A DNA stretch of 64,000 nt, from positions 3,468-67,467 of the forward strand of contig KV424023.1 in NCBI GenBank assembly GCA_001632435.1, in the 5' to 3' direction. The first letter of the stretch is position 1. Each line of letters starts with the position of its first letter. The notes under the pieces were generated by a model. That model did no database searches, had not been told where the DNA came from, and was given only the letters and a program-made list of their open reading frames with translations. Source of the stretch: Calocera cornea HHB12733 (lineage: Eukaryota; Basidiomycota; Dacrymycetes; Dacrymycetales; Dacrymycetaceae). Positions 8,464 to 27,635 of the stretch are shown piece after piece. Made by a program: the position numbers and the translations under genes.

Positions 8464-8471
8464 TCGTTGAC
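8464..8471 (+). repeat. Left target-site duplication TCGTTGAC
   Basis: This 8-bp word directly precedes the left terminal repeat and recurs exactly at 27628-27635, directly after the right terminal repeat. Confidence 0.93.
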
Positions 8472-8644
8472 CACCCTAGGCAGCTACGATAAGCGACCTA
8501 TTAGGGGTATTGCGTCGGGGACGCGCGACGGGCCTGTTAGGGGTCTTCCCCAACCAGATCTGGTCGTGATGCGGTCGCCTGCGGGCCGCTTACCAAAAAC
8601 AGATCTGGCGCGATCTGGTCCCTTGCCCGCCGTATCTGGGCGCC
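8472..8644 (+). repeat. Left terminal inverted repeat
   Basis: It matches the reverse complement of 27465-27627. The outer 14 bp are perfect. A variable stretch follows, then long near-identical blocks (8503-8545 and 8554-8610), ending in TATCTGGGCGCC. It contains CCAGATCTGG at 8554-8563, AGATCTGG at 8601 and GATCTGGTC at 8612. The element's own palindrome is thus repeated within the end, the layout expected of transposase binding sites. Confidence 0.92.
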
Positions 8645-8744
8645 AATCCGGCTGGCCCCCTCTTCTCCCTCCACATCTGGTCGGTTGTCTGGCCGGCCAT
8701 CCGGCTATCCGACCTCCTTGTCACCGGCTAGCATCTAGTGTTTA

Positions 8745-8776
8745 ACGGCCAGGGGGTTCTCCCACCCCCTGGCCGT
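8745..8776. repeat. Perfect 13-bp hairpin next to the left end
   Basis: The arms ACGGCCAGGGGGT (8745-8757) and ACCCCCTGGCCGT (8764-8776) are perfectly complementary, with a 6-nt loop. The hairpin lies about 100 bp inside the left terminal repeat and outside any gene I can support. It could be a subterminal protein-binding or structural site. Confidence 0.8.
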
Positions 8777-8954
8777 CAAGCATCCACTCTCACCCTCTCC
8801 TCGTCAACCACCACCCCCTCCTCGTCGACTCGCCCGGCTCTTCTCGTCGGCCTCTTCGACCTCTATCACTTCCCTTATCGATCTGCGTACCCATCGCTGG
8901 CCGGACGGCTGTCTGCGACGCAACATCCCACGATGGCCGCCATCTTGTTGCGGC

Positions 8955-9945
8955 TTGCTGTCTTCGCCTTTCGAGCCGCGAGCAAGTTCGGCTTGCGTAC
9001 TCGCAAGTCGTTATCTTTCGCGCCGCTCGCGAGTTCGAAACTGCTTTCGGCTTGTTGAGCTCCTCGTTCTCGACAGCCGCCTCGTTCTGCTTGGCCTCCT
9101 CATCGTCCTCGACCTCCTTCTCGACCTCCTTGGTGACGGACTCCCACGGCCGGCCAGCCTTCCTCCTCCGGCTCGCAAGTAAGTATTGCGAGTCACACGC
9201 GCAAGCCCTTCTCTCGCCCGTCGCTCGAGTCAGACTAGCCTTGGTCTTGTTGAGCTCCTCGTTCTCGACGGCTGGTCTTGTTGAGCTCCTCGTTCTCGAC
9301 AGCCGGCGAGAACGGGGCTCCTGGCCTTCTTCTTGTCCTTGTCATCGACTTCTTCAATCTTGGCCTCGTCCTGCTTGGCCTCCTCATCGCCCTCGACCTC
9401 CTTCTCGACCTCCTTCTCGACCTCCTTGGTGACAGCCTCCCACGGCCGGCCAGCCTGCGTCTTCCCTCTCCGTCTCCCGAGTTTGGCTTACGAGTTCGAG
9501 TTCGACTCGCAAGCCCTTGTCTCGCGAGTCGCTGGAGTGAGACCTAGCCTGGTCTTGTTGAGCTCTTCGTTCTCAACAGCCTTCGAGAACGAGGCTCTTG
9601 GTCCTCTTCTTGTCCTCGTCATTGACCTCTTCAATCCTGGCCTCGTTCTCCTTGGCCGCCTCATCGTCCTCCACCTCCTTCTGGATCGACCTCCTTGGTT
9701 ACGGCCTCCCACGGCCGGCCAGCCTGCCTCTTCCGGCTCGCGAGTAAGGCTTGCGAGTCACACTTGCAAGTCCTGCACTCGCCCGTCGCCTGAGCGACAC
9801 CAGGCGTGGTCTTGTTGAGCTCCTCGTTCTCGACGGGTCCTACTTTCTTCTTGTCCTCGTGATCGACTTCTTCAAGCTTGGCCTCCTCATCGTCCTCGAC
9901 CTCCTTCTCGACCTCCGTGGTGACGACCCTCGTCCGGCTGGCTAG
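8955..9945 (-). pseudogene. Tandem captured hsp90 charged-linker fragments
   Basis: Read on the minus strand, four units carry peptides of the Hsp90 charged linker: VTKEVEKEVE, a run of Asp/Glu, KIEEVDDKDKKK and ENEELNKT. The units lie at about 9055-9139, 9248-9432, 9550-9710 and 9812-9935. Each of the first three is preceded, in minus-strand order, by the dispersed GGCCGGCC motif, and the units share a spacer related to GCTCGCGAGTAAGGCTTGCG. They differ in internal length and are partly out of frame with each other, so I read them as non-functional capture products and not as a chaperone gene. Hsp90 identity rests on the well-known linker and the EELNKT motif that precedes the middle domain. 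Confidence 0.8.
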
Positions 9946-10254
9946 CCCTCCTTGCATGAGATCTGCTCGTGCCTTAACCCTACTGTAGATGGTTGGCCGG
10001 CTGGCTCCCAACCAGACTCCAATCCCACAGCCGCATGCCTACACTCGCCGCCCTACGCGCATGCGAGTGTAACCACTCCGTTATGGGTACACCGCTCCTC
10101 TGTCCCTATGCAAACGTACGCGGCCGATCGGCCGTCATCTTGTTGTTTGTCACTACCACGCACAACGACGATGAGCAGTACACTACATCCGGCAGTCCGC
10201 TGCTGGTGGCACCTTCACCATCACCCACGACACCATCCACCCCCGCTCGGCCAT

Positions 10255-10476
10255 GGTACCGAGATCCGCCTGTACCTCAAGGAGGACCAGCTCGAGTACC
10301 TCGAGGAGAAGCGTATCAAGGACATTGTGAAGAAGCACTCCGAGTTCATCTCCCAACAGGGACGGCTGGCTGGCCTCACGCTCTCTCGAAGTACCGAGAT
10401 CCGCCTGTACCTCAAGGAGGACCAGCTCGAGTACCTTGAGGAGAAGCGTATCAAGGACATTGTGAAGAAGCACTCC
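10255..10476 (+). pseudogene. Two captured hsp90 N-domain-end fragments
   Basis: On the plus strand two nearly identical copies (about 10255-10353 and 10390-10476) encode [19 protein letters not shown] followed by IKDIVKKHS. This is the conserved end of the Hsp90 ATPase domain. In an intact Hsp90 this peptide lies directly before the charged linker, which here sits next door on the opposite strand. Copy 1 runs on to EFIS. Copy 2 lacks EFI and continues SYP, so it has a small deletion. The two are separated by a GGCTGGCTGGCC block. No start, ATP-binding residues or middle domain are present, so they cannot make a chaperone. Confidence 0.88.
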
Positions 10477-10624
10477 TATCCTTGTTGCCCTTGCTCCTCC
10501 CCCTCTTTCCCCCGCGTTCCTTGGCTATAGTGTCGGCTGGCCGGCTGTGCTATGTTGTACACATGCAGGACGCCCCGCTTCAATCAATTCCATCGATGAT
10601 GTCCATACACAGCTAGCGAACTAT

Positions 10625-13600
10625 CTACCGGCCAGCCGGTTGGCCTTTGTACTTCTCCTTGTCCACAGCCGGCCACGTCATTATTTTGTCGAACATCGCC
10701 CGTCGGAATGCGAAGGCGCTCGGTCCTTCGCTTCTTGCAAATCCTCTACATATGCTGAGCGCGTTCATCAGCAGCCATGTACCGCAGTCGTAGCCATTCT
10801 TCTGTTGTACCACCTGCGCCGTAAGTACATTGTTAGAAGGTGCACATCGGTAGCAATCAGGGCACGTACTTGACCATCCCGATACAGCCAGCCGGCCCAG
10901 CCAGGGAGTGCTAGACCGGCCATTTCTCGCGCCTTGTCAATACAGTCTCGAACCCACTGCCACTGAATCAGCGACAATTGCAAGCAGGTGCAACGCGTCG
11001 TACCTCTCGATACTTTCGGTGTGAGCCACACCCTCTCAGACTGTTCAAGAACGAGATCGTCTTCGTCTCGAATTCCACCTGCACCAGGATCCAGTGGGAG
11101 TTGACGGCGTCATGAAGCGGCATGAGCCAGAGCGGCCTTGTGAAACTGTATTGGCGATCGTGCTGCTGCTGCGGCGGCCGGTCAGCCAGCTGGCAGCCAC
11201 GCCAAGGTGTGGGACTGCGTACCTCATCGCTATCCGCCTCCTTCGGGATCGCGTAAGAAAAGTACTTGTCGAACCAGAATTGTTTGCTTCGATCGTCCTT
11301 GATGTATGCGAGGTCCGACAGCATATGTGGATCGAATATCCGGACAGCCGGCAGGCCGGTCGGAGCCGCATTCTCGAACCACTCGTATGGCTGGCCTTCC
11401 TCGAAAAGCTTGCCAAAGACCGAAATGATTTGATCATCGATCCATTCGTTGTGCTTGTACAGAATTCGTTGGGCCACATTGTCCACTGTTAGCCGCTCCC
11501 TTCCAAACACCCTGCACCGCCATGGTACTGTTTCCCAGCTTGCAGGTGCAGGTACATCCTTCACATCCGACGCCAGCCACTGCATAGGATCCGTGATGGG
11601 GACTTGCGGGGCTTGATTGCCACCGGATTGCTGGTGGAGTGGATTGCCGACAATGGGGTTCGCTCCCAGTGAAGTGGGCCTGGTTGCCGGCCGGCCAGTT
11701 GCAGGCCAGCCAGCCGGACTACCCCCTCTTTCCCTAACCGGCTCAGCAGCGTTCCTCCCCGTCCCCACAAACACCTCCTCCTCTTCAACCTCAGCTCTGT
11801 CTCTTTCGTCCACCTCATCATCGTCAACATCCACTTCCAGCTGGGCTTCGTTGTGGCGTGTTGGAGCATCTCTTGCCAAGATCGCTTCCCATGATATGCG
11901 GTTTTCGAGGGATGACGGCGAAGGAAGAGGGTCAGCGAACAATGCCCTTGGACGTGCGACGTGTCGTAGGAGCTCAGACGTCATCCGCTGCTGTTCTCGA
12001 CGAGGGCTAGCCGGCCGGCCAGCCGACTCAGGTGTTATCGCCGGACCAAAGACGGAATCAGGAAACAGAGCTTCGAGCCGTACAGGCCGCCATTCGGGTG
12101 TCATCACGCGAGAGGGCGGATCAGTGACATATGGTGGGACAGACATGGCCCGCAATGCTGGGATCGGTACGTATGCGTGAGGCGCGACGTTATCGGGTGT
12201 TGGCACACCAGGCGGCCAAGGAGGAGATTGCGAGCGCGAATGATGTGAAGAGGTGTGCGGCGGCCACGGAGGTGATGACCCGGGAGGCGGCCATGGCGGA
12301 GACGATGAGTGCGATCGCCTCACGGCTGGCTGGCCGTATGGCCCCCCCTCATCATTGTTCTCTTCCATCTCTTCATCTTCCACCTCCTCCTCAGCATATA
12401 GTCCCCTCTGTTTCCCTCTCACCGCACTGTCCATGACCGTCCCACCCAGCTCTTCCACTGCTACGTCTGCATCACCCATGACCCGATCGAACGCATCTGA
12501 GTTTTCCGACAACCCCTCGTCCCAGTTCCCCCCCTCCTGGTCCGATTGGCCGGCCGGCCAGTCTTGATAGCTTGGACCCAGCTCTGGAACACGGTACGGC
12601 GAGGCCGAGATGGTTGCCATGGCCGGAGTTGCCAGTGACTGTACGCTCAGCGGGGGGGAGGGCGGCGGGGCCGGCTGGGCGTTTCGGGCTTGGTCTTGCA
12701 GCCAACGCTGCGTCCTCGCAGCAGCAATCCTCGCAAGTTCGATTGTATCCATGCTTGGACTCGGGCTCGGTATGTCGTCGTGGTTGTGGTTGTTCCAACG
12801 CCGACTAGCAGGGGTGAGGGGAGGAAGAAAGGTGAAAGGGTCTGCGTCTGCCGCCTTCGAACTGACTCCTGGGCTGGCCAGCTTCTGATCGATAATCATC
12901 GCGCGCCTCCACTTCACTTCTGGAAGTGCTCGACACGTCCATTTTTGCCGAATATGTGTGTGTTGCGTCTGCATACGTTGCAGGCGCAATACATCGCCTT
13001 GAGCTATGAAAACTTCAGGTTGCGGAATGGCCAGCCGGCTGCAATGGACGCACCACTACATTCTGCAGTTGCAACCTCCAGCGCTTGCATCTCTTCCTGC
13101 CACCATCGTATCATGTTGTCCGCTTCTCGTCCCAGCCTTCTCTCCTCCTCATTGCATCTGGCTCGGAGGAGCCAACCGGTCACTCCATGGCGTACATCCT
13201 CGTTCGTCACCCATGCCGCGGGCGGCTGGACAGCCGGCCACCATACGTCGTCCAACAGGTGATGATCTTCGGTGGGGCTCTCCAGACTATCCGGGTTGAG
13301 TTTCAAGGGTAAGGGTATGTTCCAAGCGGGGTTGAAGTGCTTTTCTAGCGACTCAACATATCCATTATATCGCCGAATGGCGGCTTGGGTGGTGCTCCAG
13401 CGAGGCCCGTAGCCTCGCAGGATCTGGTCCCTCAGCTTAGTCCCTGAGTCTGCATCAGGACAAGTGTTTCAGGTGGCCGGCCAGCCAGCGCTTACCCAGT
13501 GGTTCACGGCCCCCTCCTCTTGCTCGATGAAGACGCGCTAACTCCCACATATGTGCGATCACCCGTTCGCAAATATTCATCTTCTCCTGCCTAGCCAGGA

Positions 13601-16077
13601 CAAGATAATGAAGGAATACAGTTGACACGTCCCGAAATTCTGGGAAAGCTTGCTCGATATGAAGTTCGGTAAACAGCTGCTCTCCCTTTTTCATTAGCTC
13701 CGCATGGCTGTGGTTGAGCGCGTCAAATGCGGCACGGTTGGCTGTCCGGCCGTGAAACTGGCTTATACTGGCTTGGGCTTCTTGGATGATGGCTTCTACT
13801 CTGAGCATTTCGCTTTGCAAACGCTTATAAATGCCGATCTTGCCCTCGATGGCTTTCACAGATTCTATCCAGACATTTAGGCCGGCCGGCTGTGCAGCTC
13901 TCAAACGCACGCACCGGACTGTCTTGATTGTGGCTGCTCGAGCTGAAGTCTGTGCTGCTCCGCAAGCTCATGCTCTGTCATGCCGCTGTCTTGTATGAGC
14001 CGATCGGCCCGATGACGATGAAGGGCTAGTAACTTCATCTTCTGGTTGAACCATCGGCCCAAATTCTCCCTCATGGTCTCTCCACAATGTCGAAATTTCC
14101 GGTCCAGGGCCATTACACGACGTGCCTTCTGTTTGCTTGTTAGCATATGTGTCGCTCCCGGCTGGCTGGCTGGCCGCTCTTCAGCAAAGGCAAGAAACCT
14201 ACATCGGCACGCCGCAAAATTGGTATCTCCCTCCGAGTACGACTCCATACCCTTTCACTCCCCTCTCCATCGCTCAAACCAAACCCTTCTCTTCGGCGCG
14301 GATGATATGCCACTTGGCATGCCCATTCATGCCCATACGCATGCAGGACGCTGCATCCCATGATGATTCGAGGGAACGCTGCCCCCAGGTAACCATACTG
14401 GAAAAGGTCAATTGAGCATATATGATTTCGATGACGGTGGCTGGCCGGCTGTCATGTCACTTACCAGTCGAGAGCTGTGGTCCAACTGACAGCCAATATC
14501 ATACAGTAGGCCGACTGTGGCCTGGTCCGGTAGCTCTTTCAGGAGTTCCAACAACATCGCCACGACATACTTCTGCTGTTCACCCGGCGTGGTGATGTCA
14601 CAGGCCAAGAGCGGGATATCGTGTCGACAGAGCAAAACGACCACTCCAGTTGGATCGAACAGCTTCTCGTTCACTAGTGCGGCATCCTCGTCCGCAACTT
14701 TGAACGATTTTTTGCAACGTTCTAGCGCGTCGGCGCTCAAACGCGCTGCCATGTGATTGGCTGGCCGGCTGGCTCGCATGCGAGCCATCTCTCTGCCCAC
14801 AGCGTCCACCGCTTCCGAAGTCATGAAAATCTCAGGGCTATACACGGGAATGCTCTCCCCACCCCCGCGGAAACGGCGGAGCTGCCTATTACCGTCCGCA
14901 CAGACAATCACATCTGGTCCTCTGGAGCGGTCTTGAGTTCAACAGCCAAACGGTATTGACATCACCACCTACTGGACGGCTGGCTGGCCCCACATCTCCT
15001 GTGCGAAGCATGCGGGACAATAGCGTCTCAATCGGGCGGATGCTAACCCTCGCTGCCTCGAATCGAGTACTTTGGTTGTCTCTGTTAGCTGAACCGCTTC
15101 GGCTGGATGGCGGGCATCGATCATCTTCAACAGTCGTCGGTTCCACTCTATGTCGGCCAAATCGTACCAAAGGGCCGCACTGGCGAAGCTTTGTCGCCAT
15201 GGATCTCGCCACACCACTCCCTGGCAGCAAAAATCATCTGTCTGGCCGGCCAGCCGGCGGGCCACAGCATCACTCACATTCAGGGAGTCCCGATAAAACC
15301 ATCCATGGTCGCCATGTTTTCTCCGTAAGCCTTCACAGAATGCATCCAGCGGTGTGGCGCAGGTCCTGTACAAGTGCAAATAGTGCAACAGCAGGCTTTG
15401 ACTGAATGCCATCTTCGCCTTCGTAGGGGTGCTCGGCCAAACACCAGCAAGAACCAGGCTACCAGCTAACGGATGCTTCTCGCAGTGTGCTATCTTCAGT
15501 GGCTTACAACCTGCGGCCAGCCGGCTGTTAGCATTCTGCAGGCCATATCTGGGGCGACTTGCGGCGCACCTTCAAATGTCACACAGTCGACCGTATGTAC
15601 TCGAGAGCCTTCGCAAGACTCAGTACAGCTCCTCACGCACATGGACGGGAGAGGACTCTGGAATCCATTCGTGGCGGCGTAAACTTCCAGGAGACTGTTG
15701 AGGAGTTCAGGGAGCACAGCCAGCCATCGAAGATATGTCTGCGCTTTCTGAGCAGCATAGCGTGCGCCAGAGGCTGGCTGGCCGGCCGAAGCTGCTGGAG
15801 CCACGTCTTCCCACAGCTGCTCCCATTCTTGGTTCTCTGGCGCGTAGAGGCTACTCGCTTCAACTGGTATCTCGAATCTGGTCCCAGCAATGTACTGCGA
15901 CCCTGGCTCCAAGGAGGGCAAGGTCTGGCCAGCCGGCCTTATCGTCTTATCCCGCCGTCGTTTGATTTCTCCTTCTCGAGCTCTATGGGGCACTTCTTGC
16001 GGAGTACTGGCTTCTAGTCCGTGCTCAATGGGACGTCGTCGCTTTCTTGAAATGAAGGTGGGTGGCCTGCTGGGCAT
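10625..16077 (-). CDS. KDZ transposase fused to Ulp1/C48 peptidase
   Basis: Twelve exons join in phase: 16077-15570, 15510-15278, 15220-14994, 14921-14465, 14397-14203, 14128-13915, 13864-13496, 13449-13054, 12997-11223, 11168-11004, 10962-10870, 10813-10625; 1606 residues. Order: a basic N-terminus; a CxC1-like cysteine cluster (C-x3-C-x3-C ... DC ... C ... HC) leading into VWPSTPTKAKMAF; the DDE core with first Asp in DVIVCADGN (~14895), second in YDIGCQLD (~14490) and Glu in LSDGEGSE (~14255), plus HAYGHEW; a helical region; READNMIRWW; about 450 disordered acidic/Pro-rich residues; and a Ulp1 domain with His in SHWILVQV (~11095), FLNSL (~11040) and Cys in NGYDCGTW (~10785). Exon 9 alone runs from transposase tail into the peptidase, so the fusion is visible in one frame. 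The usual catalytic Asp of C48 peptidases is Asn here. Likely role: excision and integration, with desumoylation of host or self. Confidence 0.9.
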
Positions 16078-16227
16078 GGCCGAGTCGGTTGGTCAGGGTG
16101 AGGTTGAGGTAACCGCATCCGGCTGGCTGGCCGCAGAATAAAGGGGAGCTTGGTTTGGGAGCTTGCCATCACCTCTGTACAGCGGGTGATCGCTTATGTG
16201 GCGCGGCCAATGTGCGCCCGGAATGAA

Positions 16228-16359
16228 CAGATCTGGTCGCGCTGGTCTCATCATCATTTAACATTGACAGGGTCCAACCAGATCTGGTCGCGCTTTGACC
16301 AGATCTGGTCACTCGCAACCAGATCTGGGCCAGATGTGGTTGGACATGACCAGATATGG
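16228..16359. promoter_or_regulatory. Six CCAGATCTGG-type palindromes in the divergent promoter
   Basis: Between the start of the transposase gene (16077, minus) and the start of the 314-aa gene (16494, plus) lie CAGATCTGG (16228), CCAGATCTGG (16278, 16299 and 16319), CAGATGTGG (16331) and CCAGATATGG (16350). The same 10-bp palindrome occurs in both terminal inverted repeats. If the terminal copies bind transposase, this cluster would let the transposase control its own promoter and that of its divergent neighbour. Confidence 0.75.
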
Positions 16360-16493
16360 CCCGCCAATCGTTTTCCAACCTATGACGGTGTAGCTGGCCG
16401 ACCGGCCGTTCCTCATTGGACTCATATCCAGGCAAGGGAGGACGCTTTGCTCGCCGTAGGACGCAACTCCACCTGTCCCGACGCCGGCCTCCA

Positions 16494-17509
16494 ATGACCT
16501 CTTCAACCATCACGCCGCCGACGTGTACCCAGGTCGACTTCGAGGCGGCTGGCCAGCTGTATTGCGACAGTCCCAGATGGCTGCCTCTTGGGTCACAACC
16601 GCAGACGTGGCTCCGCTTGCTCATTATACGGGATTGGTACCTCGTAGATGATCATACGCAGGAACATATACTGTGGACAGATGAACGGCTGGCTGGCCTA
16701 TCTTATACATATTCCGCCACTGGATCTGGTCCTCGGCACGCAAATGAACATGAGGTCTGGCCATTCACAAGTCGCGAGGCCATCAGTCCTGCTCTGGCTC
16801 ATGTGTCTCCCCCCGCCATCTCGATCTGTGGAGAAGCGTTCTCGGTTCCCATCCAAGGCTTCCAGAACGCTTGGAACAATGAGTTCTTCGTCCACACACC
16901 TCTGCAGCGACAGATGTTGATCGCGCAAGGACGACTCTGTGGACCTGCTCGACGGCGCTTTCCGGGCGTTTCCAACGCGCTTTTCGATCTGGAGCATGCC
17001 GGGATGTATTATCGGTACGTTTGGCCGGCAGGCCGGCCAGCTGCGCATTACGACGTTGACTAAACTAATCGGCAAAAAAAAATAGAGGCGCCTGGATAAC
17101 AGCCATCTGCCAGGTGTTTGTCTACATTCCCGAGCTTCACGTTGTGTGTATGCTGCACGATCCTTGTACTCCTGGTCGGCCGGCCTTTGAAGCATGGAAG
17201 GAAGAACAAACCCAGCGCCTAACGAATCAGGTGGTCCCACTCTCTTCCGCCCCGTATTCGTTCCATGAAGCCCACATGCTACCCCCGGTCGGATTTACTC
17301 CACCTTTGGTGCAAGCATGGTACGAAATAGGTGAAGCATACGGGTTGACCCGTCATCAGTGGATGGAACACGACTTTCCTGGTCTACTTTTGGCTCAGTT
17401 GATATCTTTCCGCGGTGGACCGGTCGAATGGGACATGGCTACACGCCTGGAGGGGCCGGAGACAGACTGGGATACTGTCGAGGAAGGGGATGATGTAGAC
17501 CAAAGTTAG
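16494..17509 (+). CDS. Unknown 314-aa transposon cargo protein
   Basis: Two exons, 16494-17014 and 17086-17509, join in phase. The 71-nt intron has GTACGT, CTAAACTAAT and AATAG signals and carries the GGCCGGC motif just after the donor. The product is a compact, probably globular protein with many aromatic residues (RDWYLVDDH, GFQNAWNNEFFVH, GAWITAICQVFVYIPELH) and an acidic C-terminus ending WDTVEEGDDVDQS. I recognise no family. I looked for the HxD...H signature of TET/JBP dioxygenases, which accompany some fungal KDZ elements, and did not find it. It is transcribed divergently from the transposase across the CCAGATCTGG cluster, so it is likely co-regulated with it. An upstream in-frame ATG at 16416 exists but would place the start closer to the operator cluster. 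Confidence 0.7.
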
Positions 17510-17681
17510 ACAGGTCCTGCTCAATGTTAGGCGAGATATTGGATCTATCATACACCGGTGCTACGCTGGCTGGCCGGCCATGTATCTTGTCAATTGACTT
17601 CACACAGAATGTTTACATGTTGGAACTCTTACTATTTTACCTCTAAAAATAACATAATCAGCCTGCAGCTCCGTGAGGTTT

Positions 17682-17899
17682 GGATAACCGAAGGGTTATC
17701 CGCAACAGGCAACATGACGGATGCGCTCCGGGGCCAACAAGTTATCACTATGCGCACGGCCGGCCAGCCTACAATTACCATATATCAATAAGAGTATATG
17801 GTAGGTGATCTTGAAGAGTTGCACCAACTGTGTCTGGTCTGTCCACAGAAAGCGGGTGGTGGAAGTAATAGATCTTGTTCTTGACACAAGAACAAGATC
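17682..17899. terminator. Three hairpins between convergent cargo genes
   Basis: In the 1.26-kb spacer between the 314-aa gene (plus, ending 17509) and the 1053-aa gene (minus, ending 18766) are three inverted repeats: GGATAACC/GGTTATCC (17682-17701), TACCATATA/TATATGGTA (17776-17803), and a perfect 13-bp pair GATCTTGTTCTTG/CAAGAACAAGATC with a 3-nt loop (17871-17899). The spacer is more AT-rich than its surroundings. A role in ending convergent transcription is inference; protein binding is equally possible. The rest of the spacer (17900-18765) holds several GGCCGGCC motifs and no gene I can support. Confidence 0.5.
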
Positions 17900-18765
17900 A
17901 GGTCGGCTGAATCCCTACACAATCGCGGGAGTCAACTTTCTCAAGTGCGCTGTGGGCTCTCAACAATCAAACTACACTGGAACTCCAAAAAAAGGCCCAG
18001 GTTTAACGTCATGTTGATGTAGTTACAGTTTGCAGCCAGCCAGCTGGCCGCCAACACCATATATAAACAACATATTTTACAACAATGTATTGACACAGTC
18101 CATTGCATTGACAACATTGGGCTGTGACCGGTTATCATTACATGTACTACGAAAGGAAAATGAGCGTTGAAACAACGTAATCCTGGGGAGAAGTACGTGG
18201 GATCGCCACGCTTTTAGGCTCTAGTTGCTTGCCGGATGTTCTCCCAGTGAAGCCTTTCGTGATGATGTCTCGGGGCCCTGAGCACCGGCAGTCGTTCATC
18301 ACGCTGATGTGGTGCACCGTATTGGTGTTACCAATTCAGAGACATCCGTATCATGTCTCACACAATAGATACGATGAAGATAGCCATACCCAAGTTCAAC
18401 CTTCAGAGGTCCGGGACTCGGTGATGAGAACGGCGGGCCGGCCGTGTGATGGGAGAGTATGGAAAGGACAACGTCTTGTCGCCGAGACAACTCCTCGGAA
18501 TAGGTGCAGAGTCGGAGCCTTCTCCTCATGAACGAGCGCCGCGCACATGCGCCGGAACACTCCTATGTTCCCTAGATGGGAAAGCAATAAAGGAGTTGCT
18601 CTTATTGCGGACCAAACAAGCCTATTTGCAAAGTACATACAATACAGGCAGGAATCCGTGGTGTCACTGGTTGGCCGGCTGGCCACCTCACCCAATCCTT
18701 TCGATGACATAACATTACCAAAGAAACAGAACTCAGGACAGTATCATATCGACGTCCACCCGCTC

Positions 18766-21700
18766 TTACGGAGGATCTCTTCTACTGGTACCTCTATTGT
18801 AGTAGCGCGGTTGAGGCGGCGGAGAGACCCCTCTAGTCCATGCGTGAGGCGGAAGGCGAGCCTCGGTGTCTGCGGTGGGGGGAGGCATGGGTCGAGGAAG
18901 GGGGTATGGATACTGGACATGGGGGTAGGTCATCATTTGGGGATATCCCCCGTTGTCGGTCGGCCCCCCAGGCTGATATCGGGAAGGGGCCATTGCACCT
19001 TCATCTGGCCGAGGGATGGCCGGCCGGCCGGCAGTATACCAATCATGGTCATAGGCGTGACCTTGGCTTCGCGCGGCCGGGACATCCCGCGTCTGGAGGT
19101 AGCGACGCTCGTGCAGCCCATCCTGACTCGGAAACCCAGGCACGGAAAGAGGATCAGTATGATCGGCCCGCCGGCCGGCTGAAGGAGAAAGAGCCCTTGT
19201 TGCCGGCCGCGTGGAATCTATATGATGTCGGGTGTAGGCGGGGCCATGATCACGACCTTGCGGCTTGGTTCGGCCGGTGTATGGCGCCTCATCATCGAGA
19301 TCAAGATCGAGATCACTCCGATTGGTCCTGGCCGGACGGGAATAAGTGGCCTGCTCACTGCGGCCGGCTGGCGGAGAGAGCGCTGTGCGCAGGTGGTGGT
19401 GCCCGGGCGGCGGTGGATTGGGTCGTGGGTGGTCTGCCTTCCAGCGATCATCTGTACGCCGCGCTTGCAAACCATGGTACTCCTGGAATGCCGCATCCTC
19501 TGCAGAGGGCAGCTCCTCGTTGTCAGATTCGAGGATGTCCGAGAGCTTGCGCTTCAAGGGTTTTGAATGAAGCCCGCTCGGACGCTCGGTCGGAGGGCCT
19601 GCCGGCCCTGAGTCGCGATTTCCCCCGTGAACGGCGGAAGGCTGCTCCACTGGCGTTGAAGTTGATGTGTCAGCGATGTCTTGATGTGCCTTTCGCGCGG
19701 CATGTCTGGCTTTCGGGCGTGGGGTCGGCCGGCTGGCCGGTTCGTCAGACTTCCTTCTTGTACTGGCGGGTCGGCCTGCGTGCTGCTCAGGATCATCTTC
19801 TCCTGACTCTCGGGCTCGATTTTCTTCATCTCGGTAGCTCCATAGCTGGCCATCCGGCCGTATTACCAAGGGAGGGTTGTGCTTGGAAGGATCCTGTATT
19901 GCGTCTACAATAATGGGGTCAATCGATCTATCTCTCCAGCCATGTAGGGTCGCACCCTTGGACCATAACTCGACACGCACTGCAAGCGTGGGATTTTGAG
20001 TGGTGAAGGCACGCCAGATGGGCACAAGCTCGTCCTCGACGCTGTTCTGGAGCTGCTTACGAAACTCATGTGGCCAAGGGGCATCGGCAGGCCAGTTGTG
20101 GATAGTGCATTTGTGTTTGATGGCGAACTGGAGCCAGCGGGCACTCCATGGGCAGCTGGCCGGCTGGACCGCGTTAGGATCGGATAGCAACTTCATTTCA
20201 TCTACAGAAGCCGAACACCTCAGCGGGCGGGTGGTTAGGGATGAAGAGAGGCAGAGCACGAACGGAGTAGTCGTTTGCCCGTTCTCTGAATGTCCTCCCG
20301 AGCAATCTTCAGATTCTCTGGCCGGCGGCGATCGACAACCTCTGGAGGAGGGTTGTTGGCTAGCCCATGCGCTTGTTTCCTACAAGCTACATGAGAACGG
20401 GAATATACGGGGAAGTGGGTGGCCGGCCGGCTGGCCATACGCTGTGAAGTAGACCCAGGCAATCTTGCAACCGTCCGCTGTCCGCCGATACGCTTCCTCT
20501 GTGTACTGATGCATGGTTAGCTGTGAGCCTGTCCCGTCAGGGCAGATACTGCGTACTCCTTGCATGCGCTTGGTTTCGTACACGTGGTACATATCGGCTC
20601 CATCCAACGGATGGAGAGAACCGATCTCGACGCGGGCGCCGATATCGCAACAGCGGTCATACATGGAATACTAAATGAAGGACATCAGTGCATCTGTTGC
20701 TTAGCTCGATAACGGCGGCAGGCGAACCATGTGCGTGGTACATTTCAGTAGGTCCGCCATTATTTTGCGGCGTTCGGCCGGCTGGACGGCCCGACCATCT
20801 GGAGCCATATGTGCTTCGTGCCACGCAGATAACCGGGCATGGAGCTCTACTGGGTCTTGAGCGGCTTGTTCGATATATGCCGCTCGGCAAGCTGCACTGT
20901 TGAATGTCTCTGCCACAGACGTCAGTAGATATGGTGCCCAAACTGAAGAAACCACTTACGGCCACGCGGCAGCTCGTCTCTCCATTTCCGTTGAAACATG
21001 TTCCACGCATTGATAGATCGCGCCCAGCCTACAAAGGCGCCTATCTCTTTCCATACCCGTTGCTGCTGCAGATTGTAGTGCTGGCAAAGAAACTCCACCA
21101 AGCCCCGAGTCATTTGGCGGCAGAACTTGATGGCCGTCCGGCTGTCCGGTGGGAGAGCTCCGCTTGCATGTCCAAACGTATCTTTGTAATACGTGGAGCA
21201 GATGATCTTGGCTCGCTTCTTAAACGCTTCTGCGATCTCTTGTCCATCCTCATCGTCATCTTCGAAACTGGATTCCATGATCTGGTCCCAAAAGGGGTTG
21301 CCAGACTCATCAGCGGCGACTAAGGCACCTGCTGATGGAGATTCGTCCTGGCCAGTAGAGGACGAGCTCGAGCTATGATCGGGAGTAGAGTGGGAGGCGG
21401 GAAGGTTGGAGCTTGATTCGCTTGAGGATCCATCGGGTACACACGGGACCAGGCTGCAAGAGTGCTCGGCGTTGACTATCTCGCGGCCGGACGGCCGTGC
21501 AGGTTCCGAGTGAGAGGGAGGATCAGTCTGGCCAGCCGGCGGGCCAGATCCACCATCCTCGCCAGGCATTCCGTGTGTGACGAACAGAGGCGGAAGATCT
21601 TTGAGAACCGCTGAATAGCTGATATCCGATCCATTATGTGGTGTAATGGCCGGGTCCTGGAGATCGCGTAGTAGAGATTCCAGATCTTCTGGCGCCAGGA

Positions 21701-22268
21701 TCCGTGCAGCATCAGAGATGCTAGCCTCATGGTCAGCAGGTGGGCGAGGCTGGCCGGCCAGAAAATCGGAGAAGGAGTGACCGTCCAGGCCCTCGAGCAT
21801 CATGTCGGTGGAGAGGTCGTAGGAGCGCATAGAAGTCCCTAACCAGGCTCCAGGTGTTTCCGGTACGAATGAGCCAGTACGAGGTGAATGCTGAAGTGAT
21901 CTCCAATAGTTGAGCATCTCTTGTGAAACCGACCCAGGACCTGGAGGGCCGGGCTGGCCAGCCGTCTGGCCGGCTGTTGTATGATGAGTCAATACGTGAA
22001 CAGGGCAAGGAGAACATCAAAGGCGCACAAAGTTCAGGTACGGGTGGAACCTCTGCTCCATCATGACGGGGTGTTGAGTCTGAATACTTCCGAATGAGAC
22101 TGAGGCGTGTGGCAGCGGATCACAAAGGCACGTACGTGCGGGCAAGGCATAGCCGGTGTCCAGGGGTGACGAGCTATCGGCTGGATGGCAGGCTGTCTGA
22201 CGCGAGGCCTTCGTACCGGCGAAAGCAGGAGAGATGACTTGGTTAATACCCAACTCAGAAAGTGCCAT
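18766..22268 (-). CDS. Unknown 1053-aa transposon cargo protein
   Basis: Seven exons join in phase: 22268-22136, 22079-22029, 21973-20960, 20909-20728, 20670-20441, 20379-20264, 20201-18766. Two donors are GTTCGY, less usual than the others, so the middle of the model is less secure. The product starts MALSELGINQVISPAF. It has acidic and Ser-rich stretches, a conserved-looking core (residues about 290-470, with GFVGWARS-like and INAWNMFQRKW segments and a basic/aromatic stretch HVYETKRMQGVRS), a second ordered part (ELVPIWRAFTTQNP ... VELWSKGATLHGW), then a long disordered Arg/Pro-rich tail. NAWNMFQRKW followed by helices is reminiscent of HMG-like domains in some basidiomycete proteins; this is weak. 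Introns 3-4 lack the element's motif; the intron at 20380-20440 has it directly after its GTATGG donor. Confidence 0.6.
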
Positions 22269-23168
22269 GATGATATGGTTGAGTGGAGATTACGATAGAT
22301 GGATATCCAAGAAGGGTCGCGAAACGCTCGGAAGGTAGCGGGTACAGGAGTAGCGTGGAGGGAGATTGCGAATCCCTGTTCAGTGCATGCACGTGAGAGC
22401 ATACACGTCGCGAGGAGGGACGCGACGCGACGCGACGCGTCCCTCCACCTCCAATGGCGGGTCGGCCGGCTGGCTGGCCAACAAGTGCGCTCACAGCATT
22501 GATTATGGTGTAACTAGTCGAACCTACACGAGACCCCGATGTAATCTACCAGTGTCCCATAGAGTGTTATAGAATCACAACACATGACCGCCCCACTCGG
22601 CGGTAACATTCACTATCAGCAGCAGCAACAACATTTCCGGCGGAGCCGGTGGTACATCGATGGGAAGGGGATTGATACGATTTTTTTGGGGTTTGGTTTG
22701 GGTTTTGGACGGTGCAGATGATGGCCGGCCAGCCGAGGGTGGTGCAATAAGTCGAACAAGGGTTGGTGGAGGAAGTCGTGCGGCTGGCCGGCTGGTCGAG
22801 ATTGCGGTCGAGACGAGAGAATGATACAGGAGGAAGCCGACGCCCGCCGATGGGTGATAACAATTGCAGCAAGGGTTGGGGGAGGAGTCGTGCGGCGGGC
22901 AGAAGTTCCAGCTGACCAGAGTAGAGATGCGCATCTGCGCGAGTATATACGTACGTGTCGAGGAAAATGAGAGTGCTGATTGTGGCCAGCCGTCCGTCCG
23001 GGTCATTGTAGTAGCCCGACATGTTGTAGCGTGAACCATCCTAGAGCAGAGAAAAAGAGTAGCGAGAGAGTAGAGATAGGAAAGGTTTGGCAGGTCAGCC
23101 GGCTGCGATGTGCATGGTAAGGAGTGAAAGAATATTGGCCAGCCGGCCGGACCTCAGTCGGAGAGCAG
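22269..23168. promoter_or_regulatory. Spacer upstream of the 1053-aa gene: hairpin and direct repeat
   Basis: GGAGGGACGCG (22414-22424) and CGCGTCCCTCC (22436-22446) form an 11-bp stem around a loop of GACGC repeats, about 150 bp upstream of the 1053-aa gene start. Farther up, the segments 22757-22784 and 22870-22896 are near-identical direct copies of AAGGGTTGG-GGAGGA-GTCGTGCGGC. GGCCGGCC-type motifs occur near 22461, 22720, 22781 and 23136. The frames on the minus strand here (to about 23039) lack splice-consistent continuation, so I do not call a gene. Confidence 0.55.
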
Positions 23169-25600
23169 TCATTCGGTAGGCGGAGCGCGGTGATTACGCC
23201 GGGCCCAATCCTCATACTCGCGCCGTTGCTCTTCCTCCTGAAGACGTCGTCCCTCTTCGTCGATCTCGCGGTTCAGGGCACCTTCGACAGCACCGCGAGT
23301 CTCCTCCGGGAGGACGTTCGCGTCGGCCAGAATACTGGCAGCGAGGTGCAGCATGGTGAGCCGGGTCTGGGGTCCGGGCAGGGAGGCCAGAGCTGCAAGA
23401 TCACGACGCACGTATTCGGGATCAGGCGCCTATAAAGCGGTCGGCTGGCTGGCCGCAAAAGGAAAGAACAGAGTGCATACCAGTCCGATGGGCCAAGTAT
23501 GAGATCCATGCCAAGATCGCGGCCCACGCGGGGTAGTAGGAGGTGCTCCGGTCTCGGATGAGCGGTCGGAAGTGCCCTGGCAGGTTGTTCAGCATGACGG
23601 CCAGCCAGCCAGCGGGCTAAACAGTGGACGTACAAGGCGGCGACGCTGCGCAGGAGGCGCATCATCGGGCTGTTCCTCCGCCGAACGCTTCTCGACCGCT
23701 TTCCCTTTCCCTTTATCGACACGCTGGCCTGTGTCCGCCAGCTTGTGCACCCGCGTGTCCGCCTGCGTATCTTCCTTCGTATCCTCAACATCGACGTTGA
23801 CCTCACTGTCCCGGGCCTGTGGCTGGTGTGCGGGCGACGGCTGGCCAGCCGTTGGGATGAGGTCTTGAGACGTATCAACGGGGTAAGGAACCCCGGTGAT
23901 CTCCGCATATTGGTTGCGAAATGCGGCCGTGTTGGTACGGCGGAGAGCAGGAGCAGAGTAGCGGGCGGGGCGGGGAGGGATAACAGGCGTGGGTGAGGGC
24001 GGTTCTATGTGGCGGGGTGACTGCACGACGGGGAGGGGCGATTCGCCAGGGTCGTAGTGTTCCGCACCAATGCTGGGATCGATGGCTGGGCCGGCCGGCT
24101 GGCTGGCCTGCCGAGCAGCGTACTCAGCGCGGATACGATCGCCTTCAAGACGAGCCTGTCTGAACGTTTCTTGCAATTCATTGTAACGCCGCTGATTTTC
24201 GCGGTTGCGCATATCACGGATATAAGCGATGCGCGGATCGATGCGCTCAGGCGGACGGACAATCAGATTGGCAGGCGGATAACGATCAGGCTCTTCACCG
24301 GGGGGGAAAGTGACGGTTCCTAGCTGGATCTTGCCATCGGCGCGCAGGGGACCCTCATAACCTAGGGGAAAAGACGCATATAGTGAGCATATGCATCAGG
24401 CGGCCGGCGGGCCGTACGTACTGAACATCCTGCAGTCCTCCGGATGTCTGTTGAAGGAACACTCTGCGACGGAAGTCAGTTAACGGCTGGCTGGCCGGCA
24501 AACAAGTATGTAAACTTACTAAAGAACTTGGCCCCGGGGTTCTTCTGCGTTGAGATGAACCAATGCGCCTTTTTGCAGTGGAGGCAGGGGATCCACGGGT
24601 TGTCTGGGGTAGGATGCTTCCAGTCAAGATGCAGCTCACCCGACCAAAAATGGCGGGTGCCCCATTGCTCAGGAGACATGTAGTTCAGGCCTTCCGGCCA
24701 CCAATCGAGCGACCATGGGCCAGCCGGCCGTGCGCGGGTAAGGAGATCCCATTCTTCGAAGCTGACCATGCGCACAGAGTCATCACCAGTAGCAGCTGTG
24801 CTGGGCAGAAGGACAGGGGAGGCCGGCCGGTGGGCCGCGGGCCGAGGAGCAGGCTGGCGGGATGTGGGCTGATGCGCAGGCGGATTAGGTCTGGCGGTGG
24901 ATTGCATCGTGGTGGTCGAGGCCGCGTCACCCTGCATGGTGAACTTCCAGGGAGCCGTAGACCTTTGAGGGAGAGGATTGGGTACAGAAGGGACCACTCC
25001 AGCAGGCGGCTGGCCAACCGCAAGGGAAGGAGCCATAGTGCGCGGCGTGGCGGCCGTCGTCATCGCGGTGTTCGATGACACATCCTCCCTAAGATTGTAC
25101 CCCCACTCAGCGCGTTGACCAGCTTGACGACCAGCAGCATAGCCAGAACTGGGATTGTTGGCGGGTGTAAGCCGACGCGATAGATCCTGCGAGGGCTGGG
25201 GCTGGGGCTGGGGCCGAGGTGTGTCCTGCCGGCTGGCTGGCCGTGAACGGTTATCGCCGCGCGTGCTGTTGGAATGGGTACGCTGGCGGGTGTTCGAGAT
25301 CAGCCGAGGGGAGGCAGCACTCGGCTCGTCCGTGCCAGAAGTGGGTCGAGACGGACGGGGCCGAAGCTGGTACGTATATGCGGGTGTCGGGTACAGTATA
25401 GGAGGACCATCGGCCGGAGCAGGAGGATGTCCATGCGGCAGCGAGCGCGGCGGGGCAGGCGGCGACGGAGGCGGTACTTGCTGACTGTCACCACCGGCCG
25501 GCTGGCTGTCGTCTGCGTCGTCTGCCGGCGCATTGGACGCGGTGCGAGAGCGGAGATTGCGAGTCAGGAGCGTCGGTGTGAAAGGCTTGTTGGGCGCCAT
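23169..25600 (-). CDS. Unknown 735-aa transposon cargo protein
   Basis: Five exons join in phase: 25600-24520, 24463-24422, 24361-23634, 23576-23481, 23429-23169. All four introns (51-60 nt) contain the GGCCGGC-type motif. The N-terminal 270 residues are Pro/Ser/Arg-rich and disordered. An ordered segment follows, with WSLDWWPEGLNYMSPEQWG, a CLHCKKAHWF pair of cysteines and FNRHPEDC after the first splice, which together could form a small metal-binding unit. After that come a coiled, highly charged stretch (RNRENQRRYNELQETFRQ), a KGKGKAVEKR basic patch that could be a nuclear signal, and a C-terminal helix rich in Glu/Arg. I recognise no family. It may be a structural or DNA-binding cargo protein. 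The start is the first ATG of the open frame. Confidence 0.68.
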
Positions 25601-25889
25601 AGGGTTTGGCTGGCCGGCTGGCTGCCAGAGAGGGGAGGGAATGAAGACGGGAATGAAAAGCGGAGAGGGGAATAGGAGTGTGGTTGATATAGGGGGCCAG
25701 CCGGCCCCACTGGATATATGCTATGATGTTGTACAGAGAAGAGGGGAAGAAGGAGAGATGGAGGGGCGTCCAATTGTCGGCGCGTACCTTATGAGAGAAC
25801 GCGCTTCAGGGCTCAGTTTGCTTCCGGCTGGCCGGCCTTCGTGCAGAAGCGGCTCAGTCGCAACCTCCATCAGAAACACAGAGCAGACG

Positions 25890-26461
25890 ATGTCCGAACC
25901 ACGGGATGCCAGAACAACGGCGGCACAAGGTGCGGCCAGACATCCTTAATCGCAGCTGATCTGATGGGAAGAAGCAGGAGAAGTAGCTGATCGCGGTTCT
26001 GGCGGAGATATCGGCGAATACCAGGAAGAGATGGCGCTCGCCGTGGACGTCTTTGCTACGCGCCTGCAGGTGATACGGAGAAGTTCTGCTCGTGGCCGGC
26101 CAGCCATGGCTGACACATTGAACAGGAAGCACTGCTGGCCGATCTGGAGGACAATAAGCGCGACGTAGCTGCACAAGGGAAGGGTGGGAAGAGCAACCCC
26201 ACGCGTCGACGGCCAAGGCGAATGGAGCAGATCCTACAAGGGCTGTTCGAATACATTGACGTGCGCAATCTCGTGTGTATTCGCCGAACTGCTTCTAAGA
26301 TCGTTGCTTGTAGGGACTGGCAAGAGACGACGCGAAGGAACTTCATGTGGAAGAAGTTTTGGATGAGAAAGGCAAAGGAAAGGAGATTGAAGAGGGCGAG
26401 AAGGAGCGCTAGGGGCTGGCTGTGGTCGGATGGCTGTAGGCGGTCGGCCAGCCGGCCGTAG
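25890..26461 (+). CDS. Small basic cargo protein, 155 aa
   Basis: Three short exons (25890-25929, 25978-26069, 26126-26461) join in phase; the second intron holds GGCCGGCCAGCC. The first 45 residues are acidic (GGDIGEYQEEMALAVDVF). The middle has GKGGKSNPTRRRPRR. The C-terminus has LFEYIDVRNLVCIRR and is then strongly basic (WMRKAKERRLKRARR), fitting nuclear localisation or DNA/RNA binding. The end of the frame runs through a GGCCAGCCGGCC block, which supplies the last residues SASRP. I do not recognise a family. Without the spliced reading this gene would look like several unrelated scraps, so transcript support would matter. Confidence 0.55.
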
Positions 26462-26492
26462 GAGGGCAGGACGCATGACTTTGTATTAATAG

Positions 26493-27373
26493 CTACGTGC
26501 CACAATAGCCTATGTACATTTGATTCACGCGTGACGTTATACGGCTGGCTGGCCCAAGCGACGATGCGAGGGTGATACCTTCAAAAAAACACAGCACCCA
26601 AGTGGTTGCTGGATCGGGTGTCCTGTAGAGCAATGGTAAGCCATCAGAACCGGTTACGCATGCGCATGCATTGCGTACCCAGACTTGCCTCACGGTCGTG
26701 CTCAACTCAAGCAATTGCTCCAGGGTGCAGGGAGGAGAAGGATACAGATGCCATGTCCACCATTGCCGTAGTGCCGAGCGGACAGCCGGCCTGCCAGCAG
26801 ACAGAAGCAGCTGTAGATACGATTCAGAGCGATCATTACTTGAGTGATTGTCTGAAATACAATCAGCGTAAAGTCGATATCGGTGAACACGCGAGAGCGA
26901 CGCACGCGTATGCCCAAGAATGTCACATTTCATGCAATAAAGATCCCAAAGGCTGGCTGGCGGTGGTTGCCAATGACGAACGTTGCATATGTCCGCATAG
27001 ATCCACAGAGCAGGGGTCCCGAATCGGGGGGAAATCCAAGATACGAGGCCGTCGATGATCGATGTGACACGGGTCGGCTGGCCGGACAGCCCGCCAAGAG
27101 AATCAGACAAATTGAAGTCGAGAAGGACAATGTAAAGGGCTTGGGCAACATAGACGCTCTCCTGGATTGAGGCGGGGAATGGTTGTTCGGCGATAGGATA
27201 TAGACAGGAGTAAGCTGCCGAGAAAAGGAGCAACGCGAATGGACGAAGGTTGTGTGCAACAGAGGGACAACCAACGAACAAGCTAGGATTGGCGGGGGCA
27301 GCCGGGAGCGTGTCGCAGGAGAGAGACATGTCGGACCGCGTCGAGAGAGCAGGCAGAGACATGCCTTTGCATC
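26493..27373 (-). CDS. Possible membrane protein gene near the right end, structure unresolved
   Basis: The minus strand is open from an ATG at 27373 to 26493. The N-terminal part reads like a membrane protein (RPFALLLFSAAYSCLYP, YVAQALYIVLLDF). Good intron signals occur inside it (GTGCGTCGC...TTTCAG and GTACGCAAT...CTACAG), so the true product would differ from the open frame, and I could not settle the exons. It contains several GGCCGGC-type motifs. It may be a fifth cargo gene or a decaying one. Confidence 0.3.
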
Positions 27374-27464
27374 TATGTGACAGCCAGCCGGCCAGCCAGA
27401 AGGAAGAGGCCCAGGGGAGGGGGGGCAGCCAGAAGACGGGTAGGAAGTGGTCGACGACCAGACA

Positions 27465-27627
27465 GGCGCCCAGATATGGTCCACGTGCGACCAGATCTGT
27501 TTTTGGTAAGCGGCCCGCAGGCGACTGCATCACGACCAGATCTGGTCGAGAAAGACCCCTAACAGGCCCGTCGCGCGTCCCCAACGCAATACCCCTAAAA
27601 GGGCCCGTACGGGAGCTGCCTAGGGTG
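27465..27627 (-). repeat. Right terminal inverted repeat
   Basis: This is the reverse complement of the left end, with scattered substitutions and small length differences. It holds CCAGATCTGG at 27536-27545, CCAGATCTG at 27491 and CCAGATATGG at 27471. The two ends have diverged slightly, so the element is not a brand-new copy of a perfectly symmetric parent. Confidence 0.92.
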
Positions 27628-27635
27628 TCGTTGAC
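27628..27635 (+). repeat. Right target-site duplication TCGTTGAC
   Basis: This is an exact copy of 8464-8471 in the same orientation, next to the last base of the right terminal inverted repeat. Confidence 0.93.

Follow-up and report, generated by a model that had tools for sequence, protein, structure and literature searches.

Why would a transposable element carry one short, near-palindromic word along its entire length, through genes, introns and spacers alike? The question is raised by E110, an element of about 19.2 kb in Calocera cornea HHB12733 (Dacrymycetes), which occupies positions 8472-27627 (19,156 bp) of the window, i.e., of the whole 64,000-nucleotide stretch that was analysed (C110:3468-67467; whole-genome searches covered the 32.1-Mb genome of this fungus with its 302 contigs). 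Judged from its sequence, E110 is a KDZ (Kyakuja-Dileera-Zisupton) DNA transposon of C. cornea and belongs to a family, here called A, with five full copies (E110, E42, E61, E64 and E204) of 18.5-20.0 kb. The word of this family is confined between the ends of its elements, is evenly spaced and keeps its places from copy to copy; a second KDZ family of the same genome carries a word of its own, also evenly spaced. The explanation that we favour, to which we give about an even chance, is that the word forms a family-specific array of addresses, bound by a protein that the element itself would encode and most plausibly serving to counter silencing.

A word confined to one transposon family

An earlier note on this DNA, made from the letters alone, had described some 60-70 blocks of the motif between 8690 and 27395, limits that correspond approximately to the first and last motif blocks, and only stray forms outside. 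The confinement holds: all 20 exact occurrences of the 11-mer GGCTGGCCGGC in the window (10 forward and 10 reverse) fall inside that interval, and blocks of at least 10 nt number 68 in the 19,156 bp of the element vs. four in the other 44,844 bp. Ten order-2 shuffles of E110 average 2.6 such blocks, with a maximum of six. The spacing then estimated, one motif per about 270 bp, is close to the median of 267 bp found in E110. Both orientations do occur, as had been said, but not in even balance: read in the direction of E110, the five full copies hold GGCTGGCC 155 times vs. 87 times for GGCCAGCC.

The 11-mer represents one variant of a wider word, composed of at least three RGCY units (GGCC, 413; GGCT, 241; AGCC, 199; AGCT, 56). 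The block counts depend on a list of 8-mers taken from the window itself, and the RGCY definition gives the same picture, with 280 runs of three or more units in eight copies vs. none in 44.7 kb of window sequence outside the element. Blocks of 10 nt or more total 302 in the 96,951 bp of the five full copies vs. four in 87,049 bp outside them. Among the partial copies as fetched (E106, E162, E273 and E40, the last a fragment whose bounds were set by hand), three hold 2.75-3.56 blocks per kb with none in their flanks, and E40 holds 1.52 per kb with one block in its flanks. Genome-wide, RGCYRGCYRGCY is found 757 times on one strand vs. 308 for its reversed control, and 399 overlapping matches to it sit in nine fetched copies or copy stretches. 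In the copies on C42, C61, C64 and C204, some motif sites have become long microsatellites of (GGCT)n or (CAGC)n.

Even spacing and retained positions

The words are spaced far more evenly than chance would place them. The coefficient of variation (CV) of the spacing is 0.47-0.57 (about 0.98 by chance), lower than in all 2,000 random placements in each of the five full copies, whose median spacings lie between 267 and 314 bp. Pair distances below 240 bp are depleted (0.22, 0.45 and 0.63 of expectation), and their frequency peaks at 240-320 bp (1.35) and rises again, less strongly, at 560-640 bp (1.23). The outermost blocks are 177-545 bp away from the element ends, and the words run the whole length between them (18.5-20 kb, five copies). 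Transposase sites restricted to the ends were rejected as an explanation because of this even spacing over the whole element. The density of words in E110 is 3.24 per kb in its more conserved half and 3.86 in the less conserved one, and conservation in the immediate flanks of the words is a little lower than in the element (0.48 vs. 0.53, p 0.006). A degenerate tandem repeat is present at 9051-9961; its units, 222-296 bp apart and with one motif each, have a length near the element-wide motif spacing.

The sites are also kept in place. Pairwise identity of the full copies in alignment is 54-72% and, with the motifs present in the alignment, 47-76% of blocks are matched within 15 columns, with a null of 8-10%. 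As a control for the aligner pulling motifs together, all blocks were swapped for random bases and the copies realigned; 44-65% of the sites were still matched within 15 columns (null 7-9%) in all 20 ordered pairs, and an alignment artefact was rejected as the cause of the retained positions. A comparison of motif and neighbouring bases, which the earlier note had proposed, gives the motif an identity of 0.73 vs. 0.53 for the flanks in the pair E110/E42, with the motifs present in the alignment, and the motif is ahead in each of the six copy pairs tested (of ten possible). By inspection of part of the alignment, one position often carries a different form or orientation across copies, with unrelated flanks.

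Other KDZ lineages carry other words

Family B is represented by KDZ loci on C12 and C82 that are 73% identical to each other. Word A occurs there in two blocks (C12) and none (C82); instead, both hold many CATGATCATG words, (ATGATC)n. The 16-mer TCATGATCATGATCAT is found 38 times on one strand of the genome vs. once for its reversed control, on seven of the 302 contigs, two of which (C17 and C142) have a single site. The other five, C12, C13, C34, C81 and C82, are the contigs of five KDZ cores that are split like A cores yet are not A copies, and on these contigs the 16-mer lies within about 12 kb of the core. The B words are evenly spaced as well (CV 0.37 at C12 and 0.45 at C82). Within the transposase gene, 6/7 and 6/8 of them lie within 25 bp of an A word (null 18%, reached in 0/5,000 shifts), as matched through tblastx anchors in that gene, with positions inside introns interpolated.

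A further lineage is represented by E3 (C3:348664 to about 370209; L043, L044), where GACCAGATCTGGTC, a palindrome known from the ends and the divergent promoter of family A, recurs at 348.8, 360.8 and 370.0 kb. The 157-nt inverted repeats of E3 start like A ends and, because the pair is 100% identical, E3 is probably a recent insertion. Its KDZ core is 68% and 85% identical to that of A in two stretches and 46-52% in others. The RGCY3 sites listed in E3 are two, and CGTACGKAC has 17 matches, corresponding to 13 separate sites, with 0.23 matches expected. This word was discovered in 3.4 kb of E3 that hold 8 of the 17 matches (and CGTACG at 4.11 per kb vs. a background of 0.27); the other nine lie in 18 kb outside the discovery stretch, where about 0.2 are expected by scaling. 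Element ends and dispersed word thus look separable in these sequences.

The earlier note had staked its idea on related elements carrying the same motif. Family B and E3 lack word A, but they carry words of their own, which refines the idea and does not end it.

A putative family-specific address

Confinement, family specificity, even spacing and retained place together point to a site at the DNA level for a protein that recognises the family. Each large KDZ family would keep its own short, near-palindromic word along the element (about 280 bp apart in family A); in tightly packed coding sequence it would often be housed in a small intron just past the donor, and elsewhere in spacers or in frame in exons. 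A putative sequence-specific DNA-binding protein, encoded by the element, would occupy many sites at once and coat the DNA of its own family, ignoring that of the host and of other families, and the most likely job of such a coat would be to hold the element open against silencing by the host. Among the functions at the DNA level that the earlier note had listed, we retain an array of binding sites for a protein of the element, because the word is family-specific, even in the A copies and retained amid changing flanks, at a density that hardly varies with conservation; a methylation platform, a spreading repeat and a packaging site are not favoured. The CpG observed/expected ratio of seven A copies (0.90-0.98) is within the range of other sequence (0.75-1.00), and there is thus no trace of methylation decay in them.

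A bolder version, which we hold at slightly less than an even chance, is that of a self-address code over the whole length of the element, swappable between lineages with similar ends and core, in which two families with different words share positions and each element would encode its own reader, one that coats it entirely and distinguishes self from the host and from rival families. Caution is due here because the E3 sites are uneven and lie partly within the discovery sequence.

As for the reader, the product of the gene at 23172-25720 may be a candidate, as a lead only. Its relatives are labelled GRF-type zinc finger in UniRef. The predicted structure contains a long helix and is otherwise poor, with a mean predicted local distance difference test score (pLDDT) of 40; for two element proteins modelled, the means are 30 and 40. 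When its homolog P0005 was searched by sequence against solved structures, the sole match had E 0.73 and was counted as none.

Several observations weigh against a family-specific address bound by an element protein. The normal CpG ratio would also be expected if the host leaves these elements unmethylated. Between E110 and the 95% identical E40, the motif does not change more slowly than other sequence (11/211 vs. 133/2,841), with 8 of the 11 motif changes staying within the RGCY pattern by inspection. The positions shared by A and B are largely conserved introns, the same introns being used by both families; moreover, two of the seven L039 sites share one intron, and the copies L039 and L040 are related to each other. 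The loci on C13, C34 and C81 were placed in family B from the split core and the word alone. The strict word is present in 4 of the 7 introns of the deposited gene models that were fitted (three of four; P0005 is not among them), and 26% of random 62-nt stretches of E110 hold it as a baseline. In E3, 12 of the 17 matches fall in the first 5.3 kb, no match with A positions was found in the 1.5 kb tested (p 0.54), and CGTACGKAC is rarer genome-wide than its reversed control (172/191 vs. 511/470), so that the evidence for it is the cluster in E3 and not the total. Finally, the KDZ lineages at C228 and C233 gave words that are at most suggestive: these exceed their reversed controls genome-wide (160 vs. 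64; 242/247 vs. 33/30), and they are dispersed over 6/15 and 8/16 bins, as against 3 to 8 in 14 background slices; among the first 100 sites listed they are widely spread, apart from small clusters around C13:339 kb and C8:246-253 kb.

Alternative roles for the word

The array might serve transposition, with an accessory protein compacting or pairing the 19-kb element and thereby bringing its distant ends together. The very large size of the element and sites evenly spaced from end to end would suit such a role, as would the lack of short copies that kept both ends but lost internal sequence among the 15 matches to the inverted repeat obtained with the left end as a genome-wide query, a search that diverged ends could escape. 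TnpA of maize Spm offers a parallel in that it binds repeated motifs and acts in transposition as well as in demethylation. We nevertheless consider this role unlikely, since E3, a probably young insertion with the same type of ends, has a different word, and the ends are more likely to be recognised through the CAGATCTGG palindromes present at the ends of A copies, in E3 and in the A divergent promoter.

The word could instead act in RNA, e.g., as an intronic splicing signal or a nuclear retention signal of element transcripts. The association with introns that the earlier note had reported is real for the seven introns it named, all of them GT...AG with the motif 6-23 nt after the donor, and in a pattern scan the motif accompanies 13 out of 30 candidate donors, a few of these belonging to overlapping or unlikely introns. 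By inspection, at least three of the seven printed family B blocks closely follow a donor-like GT, and a near-palindromic consensus keeps use on both strands compatible with a role in RNA. However, words are about equally dense in both halves of E110, the more and the less conserved, words also stand in spacers and in frame in exons (AGQPAG in deposited element proteins is an example seen by inspection), and the strict word is absent from three of the seven introns of fitted gene models, which makes this explanation distinctly improbable.

Slightly less probable still is a neutral, microsatellite-like or homogenising repeat that has spread through each family, the homogenising form being a proposal of the earlier note. 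The long (GGCT)n runs into which some sites have expanded and the motif-bearing tandem units of the left arm speak for it. So do two pairs of distant sites, one at 13458-13501 and 26077-26120 sharing 44 nt at 75% and another sharing 41 nt at 78%, and a few sites may indeed be related by copying. Against it, the words avoid near neighbours and are evenly spaced; sites stay put while their forms change, the same site varying in form between copies and the flanks of different sites being unrelated by inspection; and two families have different words at matching positions.

A platform for methylation or other base modification with a CCGG or CpG core, another proposal of the earlier note, is less probable again. 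At its YR junctions word A has CG, TG or CA, with TA rare (12 seen vs. 73 expected), as CpG decay would leave them, but the A copies show no CpG depletion, and the words of family B, (ATGATC)n without CpG, occupy largely the same positions, which counts against such a platform in general. A TET/JBP dioxygenase carried as cargo was considered and rejected; the whole-genome search found no such gene in the elements, its two sub-threshold matches being on C49 and C100. As to packaging, suggested at the same time, it finds no support: what the element has is a KDZ transposase, and neither a capsid nor a packaging domain was detected in the scanned open reading frame stretches of E110. Least probable is that the reader belongs to the host, which would sense foreign DNA through the words: a family-aware reader would also explain family-specific words, but a word that marks an element for attack should vanish, and this one is retained in place.

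Relation to known systems

The nearest tested precedent for an address array that counters silencing is the sequence-specific anti-silencing of VANDAL21 by VANC21 in Arabidopsis, as described in the consulted portions of two reports (PMC5735166; PMC10398659). According to the same portions, a short word (YAGTATTAY) is dense in one family and rare in others, a related family has other words and the word-bearing regions change fast, all of which resembles the KDZ array. VANDAL words are, however, described there as lying mainly in non-coding tandem repeats and in one orientation, whereas the KDZ array is near-palindromic, extends over the whole element with exons included and keeps its positions between copies, with one word-bearing tandem repeat in the left arm; host and transposon superfamily also differ. 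If the whole-element code, exons included, is real, it would exceed the non-coding tandem arrays of VANDAL. More generally, how a transposon tells itself from its host and from rival families is a long-standing question, and here families with distinct words coexist in one genome.

Short repeated words bound by element proteins are also known from the subterminal repeats of Ac/Ds and Spm, where they are clustered near the ends; the KDZ words are not concentrated there and continue over the whole element. Introner elements are a case in which introns at many sites share sequence. Most KDZ-element sites, unlike these, share just a word of 12-16 nt and not the intron, and the word is found outside introns as well; in an informal check for an introner-type footprint, the flanks of the words appeared unrelated by inspection, with one site pair sharing 44 nt at 75%.

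Fungal KDZ elements such as KDZ1 of Cryptococcus neoformans have, in the consulted portions of the published accounts, a KDZ core, a CxC cluster, inverted ends and 8-bp target duplications (PMC12810828; PMC12730594), and E110 shares the core, the inverted ends and the 8-bp duplication, with a CxC-like cluster that falls below the cut-off. No description of a dispersed word in KDZ elements was found in a literature search that extended to titles, starts of abstracts and passages and left subscription journals largely uncovered, and KDZ together with "subterminal repeats" gave no match. The words could help to sort fungal KDZ families by sequence alone.

Ends, genes and further features of the element

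The features of E110 are listed in Table 1. Among the full copies, target duplications are exact and 8 bp long in three of the five (E110, E42 and E204), 10 bp long in E61 and absent from E64; the latter (C64:116213-136163) is a full-length copy that has perhaps recombined. The palindrome CAGATCTGG / GACCAGATCTGGTC, present twice in each inverted end and again between the divergent genes of E110, is probably a site for the transposase or for autoregulation.

Table 1. Coordinates of E110 and its features in the window
Feature	Position	Strand	Remarks
Left target site duplication, TCGTTGAC	8464..8471	.	Identical 8 bp after right end
Left terminal inverted repeat	8472..8608	+	137 nt, starts CACCCTAGGCAGC, with 91% complementarity to 27491-27627; holds two palindromes like CAGATCTGG
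Dispersed motif array, RGCY tetramer runs (GGCTGGCCGGC and relatives)	8648..27397	.	68 blocks (10 nt or longer), spaced 267 bp apart in the median
Gene with Ulp1/C48-like protease pieces at 3' end	10628..13055	-	10628-10936 and end of 10971-13055; two Peptidase_C48 matches below cut-off (E 0.0027, 0.017)
KDZ transposase gene of several exons (inferred limits)	13007..15571	-	KDZ Pfam PF18758, E 3.6e-24; conserved in E42, E61, E64, E204
Transposase-gene intron	13450..13495	-	Motif 6 nt after donor; family B has own word in matching gap
KDZ core	exon 14411-14938, continues in 14143-14400	-	Stretches C110:17941-18381 and 17673-17840
Intron inside KDZ core	14398..14464	-	Motif 13 nt past donor; by inspection, kept in full or degenerate form in five other aligned A copies; own word in family B
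CxC-like cluster of transposase gene	within 14972-15571	-	CxC3 E 6e-5, CxC1 E 1.1e-4, both below curated cut-off
Intron	15221..15277	-	Motif 19 nt after donor
Inter-gene region between divergent genes	16228..16370	.	About 120 bp contain five CAGATCTGG-like sites; C162, C42, C273 have partly similar stretches
Divergent gene, two exons, no family assigned	16386..17506	+	70% to protein of C42 copy, 68% to Calocera viscosa protein
Divergent-gene intron	17015..17085	+	Motif 7 nt after donor
Conserved gene, no family assigned	20383..22016	-	One exon 100% identical to CALCODRAFT_485860 of Calocera cornea, 80% of query
Gene of P0005-like protein (712 amino acids), weak GRF-type zinc finger	23172..25720	-	Homologs P0005, P0006; PF06839 E 0.042, below cut-off
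Intron	23577..23633	-	Motif 20 nt after donor
Intron	24464..24519	-	Motif 20 nt after donor
Intron-like GT...AG stretch	26070..26125	+	Motif 23 nt after GT; no gene model seen there
Right terminal inverted repeat	27491..27627	-	Palindromes near 27489 and 27534
Right target site duplication, TCGTTGAC	27628..27635	.

In family B, the CxC1 match is above the cut-off. Three element proteins were used as queries in homolog searches; each found two proteins, all of them from Calocera. The product of the divergent gene is about as similar to P0004 of Calocera viscosa TUFC12733 (68%) as to the sole C. cornea relative found (70%).

In the left arm, two hsp90-like pieces (10256-10341 and 10391-10476) are 99% identical to each other, with Pfam HSP90 in two stretches, and appear to be captured host-like sequence that was duplicated recently. 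These units had been said to be seeded with the motif; motifs are indeed at hand, at 10363-10375 and 10534-10547, but they stand between and after the units.

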